From: Salinibacter altiplanensis
GTDB taxonomy: Bacteria; Bacteroidota; Rhodothermia; Rhodothermales; Salinibacteraceae
Assembly: GCF_002894645.1 (NCBI RefSeq)
Contig: NZ_NCQY01000010.1
Span: 1-64,000 of the forward strand
DNA: 64,000 bases
Reading direction: 5' to 3'
In this document: one piece after another, positions 7,718-64,000 of the stretch
Position numbering within the stretch: the stretch's first letter is position 1
Layout: each line of letters opens with the position of its first letter
Made by a program: the position numbers and the translations under genes
Notes under the pieces: model-generated
Databases searched by the model: none
Told to the model about the DNA's origin: nothing
Seen by the model: the letters and a program-made list of their open reading frames with translations, nothing else

Positions 7718-8323
7718 ATGCCTCTTCCACCCGCCCAGTCTGTTCTTATGGAGATGCCCCAGCCCTGCACCGCCAACGATCCGACAGTCGAGGCCCTCAA
7801 GGCCGGCAGCGAGCACGCATTCCGGTGTCTGTTCGAACAGGAACGCGAACGGCTCCGACGCTTCGTGATCAAGCTGGTCGAGGACGCCGACGAGGCCGAA
7901 AACATCGTTCAAGAGACCTTCGCCGAGGCCTACCGCCAGATCGAGGACTTTCGGGGCGAGGCCGCGGTGTCGACGTGGCTCTTTTCCATTGCGAAGCACC
8001 TGTCGTACGGCCACCTCCGCACGAGCGACCGGCACAACTACCTCGAGCACGAGACCATCGAGTTTCTGCAGGTCAACCGGGACGAAACGACCGGGGGAAC
8101 GCGGGCAGAGGTGGAGCGGTCCGAGCGAAAGGAGATCGTGCACGATGCCCTTCAGGAACTGCCAGACCACTACCGGCGCGTGGTGCAGTTGCGGGATCTA
8201 CAAGAGAAGTCCACCGCGGAAGCGGCCGAGCAACTCGACCTGACGGAGGTGAACGTGCGGGTTCGGCTCCACCGGGCCCGAAAGTCCCTCCGCGAACACC
8301 TCTGCGAACGGATGGAATGCTAG
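7718..8323 (+). CDS. ECF-subfamily RNA polymerase sigma factor
   Basis: A 201-residue sigma-70 protein of the extracytoplasmic-function group. Region 2 includes HAFRCLFEQERERLRRFVIK, then DADEAENIVQETFAEAY (region 2.2) and FRGEAAVSTWLFSIAKHLSY (regions 2.3-2.4). Region 4 near the C-terminus is LQELPDHYRRVVQLRDLQEK followed by the helix-turn-helix EAAEQLDLTEVNVRVRLHRA. The ATG at 7718 has a GGAGA about 10 bases upstream and is preferred to the longer frame from 7661. No anti-sigma gene follows, which is unusual, so control must be by another route. It is divergent from the P1 peptidase gene. Confidence 0.9.
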   Translation: MPLPPAQSVLMEMPQPCTANDPTVEALKAGSEHAFRCLFEQERERLRRFVIKLVEDADEAENIVQETFAEAYRQIEDFRGEAAVSTWLFSIAKHLSYGHLRTSDRHNYLEHETIEFLQVNRDETTGGTRAEVERSERKEIVHDALQELPDHYRRVVQLRDLQEKSTAEAAEQLDLTEVNVRVRLHRARKSLREHLCERMEC

Positions 8324-60594: not shown

Positions 60595-60894
60595 TTGTTC
60601 CGAGTGCTTGGAACCTGTTTCACTTTCTGTCTCGGGGCTCCGAGCGGCAGTGAGGGCCTGCACATCGCCTCCGGTCTCGGGCGGCCCCATGACAGCCCTC
60701 GACCATGCGCCGATTTTCGGCTCATCGATGCTCGCTCTCTCCATCCGATCCAAAATTAAAACAGGTTCTTGGAGGCGGAGCTGCCCCCTAGACGCTCTTC
60801 TCTTTCCCTCTCGGCAAAAGAGCGGCATCGTGGCGGCCCCCACGGTGCCGTTTCTCTGTTTGCGTCCCGTTCGTCCAGCATATTGCATCCGCTC
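60595..60894. other. Intergenic region with a MITE-like element
   Basis: 300 bp after icd. The 158-bp element at 60611-60768 occupies half of it; the rest precedes the NUDIX gene and presumably carries its promoter. No other gene is supported. Confidence 0.5.
60611..60768. mobile_element. MITE-like element, 158 bp
   Basis: The left end GAACCTGTTTCACTTT and the right end AAATTAAAACAGGTTC are imperfect inverted repeats. TTG flanks both sides (60608-60610 and 60769-60771), which could be a 3-bp duplication. The right end with CCATCCGATCCAAAATTAAA closely matches the solo end at 8652-8680. It has no coding capacity. Confidence 0.6.
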
Positions 60895-61552: not shown

Positions 61553-62791
61553 CTATTCAGTGACATCGGGATTCGATGCCGCCTCGGCCCCCATTAGGGA
61601 GCGCCAGCCTACCGCTCCCCATTGCTCTGGCGCGTAGCGCTGGATCCACCGCCGGTCGATCCAGTGCTTGAGCCGAAGGAACCCCGAGCGAGCCGTCCAC
61701 AGGGGACCCGCCGTCCAGATAGCGCGGCGCGCTCCGGTTGAGAGCAACAGCGGCGCAACCGGGTACGGGCGAAAGGCCGTCAGGTCCGATGCGACCGGGG
61801 CCGAGCCGTCCTCGGCGAGTCGACGTAGCGTGGTGTCGAGATTCGCCCGGAGGTCCGGCCCCTGCTTCACGGCGTGCACGCCCACCTTGTCCAGGTCCAA
61901 CTCCGGAATGGTCCCACAATCGCCGGCGGCAAAGATGCGGGGATGGGTGGGAGTGCGCAGGCGACGGGTCACGTGCAAGAAGCCCCGATCATCGGTCGAC
62001 AGCCCGCTTTCGCGTAGCAGAGGCGGAGCAACGGCCCCGGTGCTCCAGAGCACCGCGTCGGGGTGAACCGTATCGTGTTCACCCGTATCCGTCCGCATGT
62101 CTACCTGGGTGCCGTCTGCATCGGTTCCGTGCACCGCGTCGACGGTGGTCGCCGTCCGAATGGCCGCACCTCGTTCTCGGAGCAGCCGGGACGCATAGGC
62201 GCGCATGCCTTCAGGAAATCCCGGCAGGATCTTCCCCGACTGCTCAACAACCGTCAGCGAGAGATCTGCCGCCCGTCTGGCCCCCACGAACCGTCCCGTG
62301 ATGTTGAGGCCCACCTCTACCCCGGCCGCACCGCCCCCTACAATCGTCAGGCCCAGCGTCTCCGTCGGGGCGTCGAGCACCTGGTTCAAGTGGGGACGGA
62401 GGGCACGAACGCGATGGATCGGCTTGGTGCCCACCGCGGCGTCGGGCAGGGCCGGATTTACGCCCCCGACATCGATCGCCAGTACGTCGTAGGGGATGGT
62501 CTTCCCCTCCCCCGTCGTGACCACGCGGGTCTCCGGATCGAGGGCCGTGGCCCGAGCCGCCACGTGCGTAGCGCCTGCCTTACGGGCCATTCGCCGCAGA
62601 TCGATGCGAATGTCGTCGACCGCGTACACCCCGCCCAGGTGCTCCGGCACCATGCCCGAGTAGTAGAGCCAGCGTTGGGGGTCGATGAGGGTCACGTTGA
62701 TCCCGGCATCGGTCCATTCCCGCGCATGGGCGAGGCTGGGCAACATGGCGTGTCCCCCGCCGACCAAGACGAGGTGCAACGGCTCAGACAT
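61553..62791 (-). CDS. NADH dehydrogenase-like (NDH-2/SelD-associated type) flavoprotein
   Basis: A 412-residue pyridine nucleotide-disulfide oxidoreductase-fold protein. The N-terminal FAD site is LVLVGGGHAMLPSLAHAREW, followed by the family motif LYYSGMVPEHLGGVY. The second dinucleotide site is GLTIVGGGAAGVEVGLNITG, and FAAGDCGTIPELDLDKVGVH is the second FAD contact. This branch is related to NDH-2 dehydrogenases and to the N-terminal oxidoreductase part fused to SelD in some organisms. It lacks redox cysteines near the FAD site, so it is not a disulfide reductase. Electron acceptor unknown. An 18-bp operator-like palindrome lies 161 bp upstream, shared with the TetR gene. Confidence 0.82.
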   Translation of the reverse strand: MSEPLHLVLVGGGHAMLPSLAHAREWTDAGINVTLIDPQRWLYYSGMVPEHLGGVYAVDDIRIDLRRMARKAGATHVAARATALDPETRVVTTGEGKTIPYDVLAIDVGGVNPALPDAAVGTKPIHRVRALRPHLNQVLDAPTETLGLTIVGGGAAGVEVGLNITGRFVGARRAADLSLTVVEQSGKILPGFPEGMRAYASRLLRERGAAIRTATTVDAVHGTDADGTQVDMRTDTGEHDTVHPDAVLWSTGAVAPPLLRESGLSTDDRGFLHVTRRLRTPTHPRIFAAGDCGTIPELDLDKVGVHAVKQGPDLRANLDTTLRRLAEDGSAPVASDLTAFRPYPVAPLLLSTGARRAIWTAGPLWTARSGFLRLKHWIDRRWIQRYAPEQWGAVGWRSLMGAEAASNPDVTE

Positions 62792-62951: not shown

Positions 62952-62969
62952 TGAGTGATTGATCACTCA
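62952..62969. promoter_or_regulatory. TGAGTGA-N4-TCACTCA palindrome, site 1
   Basis: TGAGTGATTGATCACTCA, with perfect 7-bp arms, lies between the flavoprotein start (62791) and the TetR gene (63250). It is closest to the flavoprotein side. Two further copies are at 63104 and 63905. The likely binding protein is the adjacent TetR-family regulator. Confidence 0.8.
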
Positions 62970-63103
62970 TTGTTGGCATTGGTGCCTAACCCGGAAGGTT
63001 CCGATGGAGACGTACTGACCGTTCGGTACGAGGACGCCTCCCTCTGTATTTGAACTCCTCGCGAACCGATGAACCCATACTGGCAATCGCCATAGAACGA
63101 CGG

Positions 63104-63121
63104 TGAGTGATCACTCACTCA
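63104..63121. promoter_or_regulatory. TGAGTGA-N4-TCACTCA palindrome, site 2
   Basis: TGAGTGATCACTCACTCA, with perfect 7-bp arms, lies 129 bp before the ATG of the TetR gene. This position suggests autoregulation of the regulator. Confidence 0.8.
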
Positions 63122-63249
63122 CAGTTTTTCGGGTTGAAAATGGGACCCATCCACAGCACCTAGGTGACGCCCTTACTGAAAAGGCAGTCTTTCCTCCGAC
63201 GTTCATCAGCTTCCCCCAGACGGGTCTTTTCCCCCATTCGCCTCCCCCC

Positions 63250-63819
63250 ATGACCAAGCGAGACGACATTTCCGAGGCCGCCCTCGCCCTCTTTGCCGAG
63301 AACGGAATTGAGGCCACGACGACTCGTGAAATTGCGGAGCACGCCGGGGCGGCTGAGGGGACGCTCTACCGCCATTTCGACGGCAAGGCGGACCTCGCCC
63401 AGTGGCTCTACCGCCGCTGCCTGAGTCAACTCCGCGACACTCTCACGGACGCCGACGAGGAGACCTCCGCCCCGACCCATCGGCTGGAGGCGCTCGTGCG
63501 TGGTGTCTTTGACTTTTATGCCTCCAGGCCCGCCTCGTGCACCTACCTGCTTTCGGCCCGGGAATCGGGCATCGTGAGCGGGAGCGGGAACGACTCCCCG
63601 CCCTCCCCGATCCGGCTGTTCGCCCGTGTGCTCGACGAAGGCGCGCAACAAGGCGTCTTTCGGGAGACCTCGTCCCTCCTCGTTGCCGGATGGATTCTCG
63701 CGATGGTTCAGCGTACCGTTCTTTTCCTGAAGACCGACACCCTTTCTTCAAGCACACAGGACGCGATCGACCAGACGGTTGACGCGGCCCGCCGGCTGGC
63801 GGCGGCTCGCCCGAGCTGA
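63250..63819 (+). CDS. TetR/AcrR-family transcriptional regulator
   Basis: A 189-residue regulator. The N-terminal DNA-binding domain is standard: MTKRDDISEAALALFAENGI, then TTTREIAEHAGAAEGTLYRH and FDGKADL (helix-turn-helix about residues 25-46). The C-terminal ligand-binding part is alpha-helical (LEALVRGVFDFYASRPASCT, then LVAGWILAMVQRTVLF). It is most likely a repressor that binds TGAGTGA-N4-TCACTCA, found before its own gene, before the divergent flavoprotein and before the gene at the right edge. The ligand is unknown. The ATG at 63250 is preferred to a longer frame from 63103 that would pass through site 2. Confidence 0.92.
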   Translation: MTKRDDISEAALALFAENGIEATTTREIAEHAGAAEGTLYRHFDGKADLAQWLYRRCLSQLRDTLTDADEETSAPTHRLEALVRGVFDFYASRPASCTYLLSARESGIVSGSGNDSPPSPIRLFARVLDEGAQQGVFRETSSLLVAGWILAMVQRTVLFLKTDTLSSSTQDAIDQTVDAARRLAAARPS

Positions 63820-63904
63820 GCAACAAGGGTGCCGCACCGATTTCTACACTCCGAACCTGTCTAGGTGATCATGCATCCCCGAGTAATCATGTATCTCCGA
63901 ATTG

Positions 63905-63922
63905 TGAGTGAACGATCACTCA
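63905..63922. promoter_or_regulatory. TGAGTGA-N4-TCACTCA palindrome, site 3
   Basis: TGAGTGAACGATCACTCA, with perfect 7-bp arms, lies between the TetR stop (63819) and the probable gene at the right edge. A GTG overlapping the left arm (63904) is one possible start of that gene, so repression by occlusion is plausible. Confidence 0.8.
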
Positions 63923-63945: not shown

Positions 63946-64000
63946 GTGCCGTGGATGCTGATGCTCGGCCTAATTGCCGTTCTCCCGATGCGTGGGACGG
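63946..64000 (+). CDS. Start of a probable exported protein, cut by the window edge
   Basis: Only the first residues are visible: from GTG at 63946 the frame reads VPWMLMLGLIAVLPMRGT, which looks like the hydrophobic part of a signal peptide. In-frame GTG at 63904 (giving MSERSLISRVQTRI before it) is another possible start. TetR regulators often sit beside efflux systems whose first gene is an outer-membrane or membrane-fusion protein, but nothing here proves that. It lies directly after operator site 3. Confidence 0.4.
   Translation, partial: MPWMLMLGLIAVLPMRGT

Follow-up and report, generated by a model that had tools for sequence, protein, structure and literature searches.

A palindrome predicted to be a TetR operator at an efflux locus of Salinibacter altiplanensis suggests a link to sulfide detoxification

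The window analyzed here, a stretch of 64,000 nucleotides of Salinibacter altiplanensis DNA, carries close to its right end three copies of the palindrome TGAGTGA-N4-TCACTCA around the gene of a TetR-family regulator, which raises the question of which protein would read these sites and which genes it would govern. The features concerned are the following.

61553..62791, minus strand: flavoprotein (Pyr_redox_2), NDH-2-like
62952-62969: predicted operator 1, on the flavoprotein side, separated by 160 nt from the flavoprotein ATG
63104-63121: predicted operator 2, on the TetR side, separated by 128 nt from the TetR ATG
63250..63819, plus strand: TetR-family regulator of 189 aa, with Cys57 in helix 4 and Cys97 at the start of helix 6
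63905-63922: predicted operator 3, starting exactly 50 nt 5' of the TolC start codon
63955..64000 in the window and on to C4:65301, plus strand: TolC, an outer membrane efflux protein, with MFP and RND permease genes behind it

The three sites with perfect 7-bp arms that a sequence-only reading had described were recovered exactly, each with 0 mismatches, and none of 100 dinucleotide shuffles reached three such sites (mean 0.00). At up to three mismatches the window is not special, since it holds four sites compared with 1.64 expected and 10 of 100 shuffles also reach four. Operator 2 contains GTGAGTGATCACTCAC, a perfect 16-bp palindrome without a spacer, and its centre is therefore ambiguous. 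A GTG-started TetR frame (63103) overlaps this operator and operator 3 falls within the longest possible TolC reading frame; the regulator probably starts at the ATG at 63250, and the likely TolC start lies downstream of operator 3 at 63955.

The perfect pattern is rare. In the whole genome (3,586,011 bases in 30 contigs) four perfect sites were found, compared with 0.004 expected by chance in 3.59 Mb at the GC content of the window (0.646) and none in a reversed control, the fourth being located outside the window on another contig (C19:287819) and followed by a fifth site with two mismatches (C19:287960). With up to three mismatches the signal is drowned genome-wide (68 sites compared with 40 in the reversed control). 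Perfect sites occurred in only 10 of 394 genomes of the phylum, six of them in the family and with an orthologue of this TetR, and four elsewhere (one site each); the reversed control gave matches in 2 of the 394. The perfect sites of G214, G394, G223 and G263 were treated as chance, as their 3-kb loci contained no match to the TetR, pump or sulfide queries. Hence the pattern is neither frequent nor unrelated to TetR, the outcome that the sequence-only reading had considered as a possible refutation of its proposal.

In one orientation, each of the four perfect sites in this genome reads TGAGTGA-NNGA-TCACTCA with TTG or CTG in front, indicating that flank and spacer are constrained too, and the spacers can thus be called different only in part. 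When the divergent intergenic region was aligned across four genomes, only short blocks matched well, and the operators were the longest perfect ones among them. This result and the differing flanks of sites 4 and 1 bear out the earlier suggestion that selection rather than recent copying keeps the sites alike. The TATTTGAACTCC block at 63047-63058, between operators 1 and 2, is kept in all four aligned genomes and is possibly a promoter element; a by-eye check for Bacteroidetes-type promoter elements at the sites gave none that was consistent. A short MITE-like element whose 16-nt ends form an inverted pair of 88% complementarity is present at 60611-60768 of the window, and a sequence that looks similar by eye, in which no inverted pair was reported, adjoins the remote operators of C19 close to where that contig ends (L006, approximately 8024-8140).

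Is the neighbouring regulator the one that would bind these palindromes? Among 27 genomes of the family, a site with no more than one mismatch was present in all ten that have a TetR orthologue and in none of the 17 that lack it (naive odds of 1.2e-7, ignoring relatedness). The orthologues of the ten genomes share 46-100% identity (48-100% in the search across the family genomes), and the next best protein reached 43% over 82 residues, the others being lower or weaker. Five of the 17 genomes without the regulator are less than 80% complete and only four are at least 90% complete, so that absence counts for less there; if only genomes of 90% completeness or more are counted, 10 of 14 carry both the TetR orthologue and the site. 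Because of this co-occurrence, the neighbouring TetR very probably has its operators in these sites, as had been proposed, and it appears nearly certain that the three palindromes of the window are correctly predicted as operators of the TetR at 63250-63819.

The regulator itself is an ordinary member of its family in domain and predicted fold. Its N-terminal helix-turn-helix scored 63.2 bits with PF00440 (cutoff 24), the family-model scan returning TetR_N instead of any ArsR-family match, and the alignment-based AlphaFold model (pLDDT 89), used in place of a single-sequence model (pLDDT 54), predicts an unremarkable TetR, in which residues 46-70 form helix 4 and residues 94-106 form helix 6. 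The fold matches, among the 50 entries listed, had Z scores of 17-20 over about 174-186 residues and mostly carried TetR-family titles or were named regulators of that family. The nearest solved structures were FadR-like (FadR/KstR2-type) and uncharacterised TetRs; regulators of the FadR/KstR2 type have acyl-CoA ligands. The FadR model NF053878 gave 41.3 bits against a cutoff of 200, and the AcrR and MtrR models scored far below their cutoffs.

Two cysteines set this clade apart from other TetRs. Cys57 and Cys97 are invariant in all nine TetRs of the Salinibacter clade and both are missing from the tenth orthologue, that of G003, while Cys8 is found in eight of the nine, with Ser8 in the genome of the window (G000). 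Of 102 wider relatives, 92 have F or Y at position 97; Cys97 is confined to four rows of this set, all of them clade members fetched a second time, and Cys57 is also present in three distant relatives. In TetR proteins, coupling classically runs through helix 4 and helix 6, and two thiols placed on this route could therefore move the DNA-binding heads. We only tentatively consider the pair as a thiol sensor of sulfur.

On either side of the regulator, the genes next to the operators could be named more closely. The nearest NCBIfam model of the flavoprotein was TIGR03169 (Nterm_to_SelD) with 232.9 bits, below its cutoff of 310, and the PDB matches were FAD oxidoreductases including NADH dehydrogenase-like chains. 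Its earlier designation as NDH-2-like is appropriate as to sequence resemblance (NDH-2 or SelD N-terminus), with a score that stays under the family cutoff. An assignment as SQR was ruled out, since it lacks a redox Cys pair outside the FAD motif; in all eight orthologues examined (that of G016 was left out) the single Cys lies in the FAD motif GDC. The gene at the right edge, formerly ascribed to an unknown, probably exported system, is instead the first of an operon for a TolC-MFP-RND tripartite pump, whose components all scored above cutoffs (OEP 163.5, RND_mfp 211 and ACR_tran 552 bits). Behind the pump operon (L005 12445-18001, that is C4:70444-76000) are genes for an ArsR-type regulator, an ArsP_1 permease, a ZIP protein and a second RND protein; in G015, ZIP and the second RND gene stand after PDO-TauE (see below) instead.

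Flavoprotein, TetR and TolC-MFP-RND genes are found together in G000, G011, G014, G015, G021 and G022. In G016 the flavoprotein gene is 4.7 kb off, separated from TetR by other genes including an OsmC-like gene that is divergent from TetR, with a one-mismatch site in between. Operator 1 is perfect in G000, G011, G014 and G015, has two mismatches in G021 and three, barely above background, in G022; no site was found before the flavoprotein gene of G012 and G013. Operator 3 starts 50 nt before TolC in six genomes (G000, G011, G014, G015, G016 and G022, with 0-2 mismatches), and no site was detected at this position in G012, G013 and G021. At the cutoffs used, the pump was found in 16 and the flavoprotein in 17 of the 27 family genomes, also in some without this TetR. 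The pump orthologues (67-79% identity) of eight genomes without a Cys-type TetR, G003 included, had no site, the stretch 5' of TolC being covered in six of these eight loci (all but G001 and G002, with 475 nt for G026); nor were sulfide neighbours recognised at pump loci of this kind, except for a possible DsrE in one. In G003 a perfect site lies about 1 kb upstream of the Cys-free TetR (L058), near a cytochrome c'-like gene and another that is presumably mnmG-like, and 15.9 kb around this TetR gave no match to PDO, TauE or flavoprotein queries. A whole-genome search with an SQR query placed the SQR of G003 on another contig than its TetR.

The sites outside the tetR loci point to a different kind of gene. 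The fourth site (C19:287819) precedes by 157 nt the presumed GTG start codon of a protein of 490 aa consisting of a metallo-beta-lactamase (MBL) domain and two rhodanese stretches, with a TauE gene next. Its best PDB matches were the MBL-rhodanese proteins 3tp9 (E 5e-110) and 3r2u, and it is a probable persulfide dioxygenase (PDO), a name that rests on architecture and solved relatives because no NCBIfam model scored above its cutoff. Away from the tetR loci, the ten genomes contain four sites of this quality, two of them perfect and two with a single mismatch; both perfect ones precede sulfide-oxidation genes, namely the PDO of G000 (157 nt) and an SQR of the congener G016 (114 nt). In the latter genome (L059 7617-9946) the perfect site is followed in a row by type III SQR, DsrC and DsrE2; the SQR scored 623 bits with NF049943 (cutoff 525), has Cys161 and Cys335, and its best PDB matches are mitochondrial-type SQRs. 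The model that it matches is of a selenoprotein subtype, but the protein reads Cys. The one-mismatch sites were treated as chance, one (G016:C4:3488890) lying inside or at the edge of an unrelated reading frame, presumably dephospho-CoA-kinase-like, and the other (G014:C1:1063565) inside an unrelated frame that we take to be SusD-like.

In Salinivenus iranica (G012) and Salinivenus lutea (G013) the gene order is PDO-TauE-[site]-TetR-TolC-MFP-RND; in G012, two YeeE-type genes lie 5' of PDO, and the pump is followed by genes for a YgaP-like membrane protein and for SulP. Here the site follows TauE and precedes TetR, and thus PDO itself need not be controlled. In G022, PDO and an SQR-like gene are about 16 kb and 26 kb from TetR, respectively. 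Across 22 PDO loci (five with shortened flanks, and with the 5' region of the G021 PDO left out), a site was upstream in one, beyond TauE in the two Salinivenus genomes, and no operator-level score was obtained in 19. Similarly, a site was upstream at one of 18 SQR-like loci, the other 17 showing no operator-level score, among them the SQR of G003, which is 70% identical and had no site.

In summary, the distribution of the site suggests a small regulon that joins efflux to sulfide or persulfide detoxification, and it is likely that this regulon takes in sulfide-oxidation genes. As such it would reach beyond the window, which changes the meaning of the sequence-only reading. As the best explanation of the sites, their rarity, their co-occurrence with TetR, their neighbours and the sulfide genes, we infer binding, repression and shared control of PDO, and assign a probability of roughly 60% to the reading that TetR holds down the flavoprotein gene, tetR, the pump and the remote PDO-TauE pair until sulfide or persulfide stress releases it. 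Without inducer, TetR dimers on the palindromes would repress the divergent flavoprotein gene, tetR and the tolC-mfp-rnd operon, and the copy on the other contig would impose the same repression on the PDO-rhodanese fusion and the TauE exporter. In relatives, the repressor would have taken over, or would adjoin, other genes of the pathway (SQR-DsrC-DsrE2; YeeE-YeeE-PDO-TauE). Upon sulfide or persulfide stress, TetR would be released and sulfide-derived sulfur would be oxidised and exported, while the pump might remove a toxic product occurring at the same time. More speculatively, Cys57 and Cys97 could sense by persulfide or di-/polysulfide bonding, and the cargo of the pump is equally conjectural.

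The strongest alternative is that this TetR is an ordinary local repressor of a multidrug-type RND pump, the flavoprotein gene and itself, with a lipophilic or acyl-CoA inducer, and that the PDO and SQR sites of two species are late opportunistic additions whose signal is not sulfur. Pump, TetR and site do form the conserved core, FadR and KstR2 are among the near structures, and only one of the 22 PDO loci has the site upstream. The operator type also extends well beyond the clade: at 76 distant TetR loci (80 less four clade members), a palindrome scoring at least 20 was found in 32 and none of at least 14 in 28, the background maximum being 15.4 in 344 kb, and in G107 a 36% identical TetR without Cys97 has two such sites and lies next to genes for RND and MFP. 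Operator and pump control therefore look old and ordinary, and the unusual part is that one clade combines the Cys pair with sulfide genes. However, the only two remote perfect sites of ten genomes both precede sulfide genes, PDO-TauE adjoin TetR in two genomes, and position 97, aromatic in 92 of the 102 relatives, is Cys only in this clade, so that we regard a purely ordinary pump repressor as rather unlikely. Alphaproteobacterial TetR relatives, for example at the Ancylobacter loci L156, L174 and L176, have a comparable palindrome some 3.5 kb upstream of their TetR, the distance being much alike in many species.

A second alternative treats the remote PDO site of G000 as a bystander, due to chance or left over from an ancestral Salinivenus-like linkage, with a regulon that is local only. 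No site was found in the PDO loci of G011, G014, G015, G016 and G022, as this would predict, but only 0.004 sites are expected by chance per genome, two sites (0 and 2 mismatches) precede a single gene at a distance of 141 nt from each other, and sites 4 and 1 have unlike flanks, which together make this explanation improbable. That another regulator binds the palindromes and TetR is unrelated to them is hardly credible in view of the exact co-occurrence with the TetR orthologue and the similar palindromes at 32 of the 76 distant TetR loci.

Beyond the proposed joint repression by TetR, a bolder evolutionary version, which we put forward with considerable reserve, would have the pump repressor of the Salinibacter/Salinivenus clade gain Cys57-Cys97, replace the function of BigR/SqrR/CstR and become a master regulator of sulfide oxidation and RND efflux, recruiting PDO-TauE, SQR-DsrC-DsrE2 or OsmC depending on the species. 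If true, sulfide sensing would extend to a very large repressor family, by way of a TetR that marks PDO, SQR and a pump, and one operator would be seen spreading over a pathway species by species. G003, with the operator type and a TetR without the cysteines, offers a natural control, and Salinibacter, an extreme halophile, would gain a testable sulfide response.

In its available text, a review names CstR, SqrR/BigR/PigS and FisR as regulators of reactive sulfur and makes no mention of TetR (PMC9774590), while MarR proteins have also been reported for reactive sulfur, according to article excerpts (PMC11211675, PMC8614764). AcuR is a TetR for DMSP/acrylate, and sulfane sulfur appears only in the reference list in the accessible portion of that article (PMC13104084). 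Titles and abstract openings in the literature gave no TetR persulfide sensor, which is weak evidence of absence because 'tetr' picks up words such as tetrathionate as well and few subscription papers were covered; the Salinibacter literature gave nothing relevant among the matches listed.

BigR and SqrR are described, in the parts of the sources at hand, as persulfide-sensing repressors of the ArsR family, SqrR being the repressor of sulfide:quinone reductase (PMC5823870, PMC7315123, PMC9774590). Their regulons, as far as these excerpts go, would resemble the one predicted here in a repressor with a conserved Cys pair and in genes for PDO or a sulfur transferase/dioxygenase, YeeE/YedE and TauE-type proteins. 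In contrast, the regulator here is a TetR with a TGAGTGA-N4-TCACTCA operator, PDO comprises an MBL and two rhodanese domains, the predicted regulon also takes in a flavoprotein and a TolC-MFP-RND pump, and the sulfide response is predicted only. With a regulator of another family in this role, the system would be a fresh variation on a known theme. Likewise, CstR (CsoR family) controls the persulfide-handling genes of the cst operon through two Cys, in the extract available (PMC9774590). Unlike CstR, the regulator here comes from an unrelated family. We take CstB, the MBL-rhodanese fusion of that operon, to resemble the PDO found here, and its match 3r2u to be an S. aureus protein; we know of no pump in the cst operon.

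By sequence and fold, Bacillus FadR/YsiA and KstR2 are among the nearest solved structures, and the FadR operator, TGAATGA-N4-TCATTCA, is one base pair per arm off the operator of this study. In contrast to FadR, no fatty-acid gene was recognised at any site here, and the NF053878 score was 41.3 against 200. Finally, AcrR, MtrR and TtgR share with this regulator the position next to an RND operon and palindromes before their own gene and the pump, whereas here the site is also common to sulfide genes.
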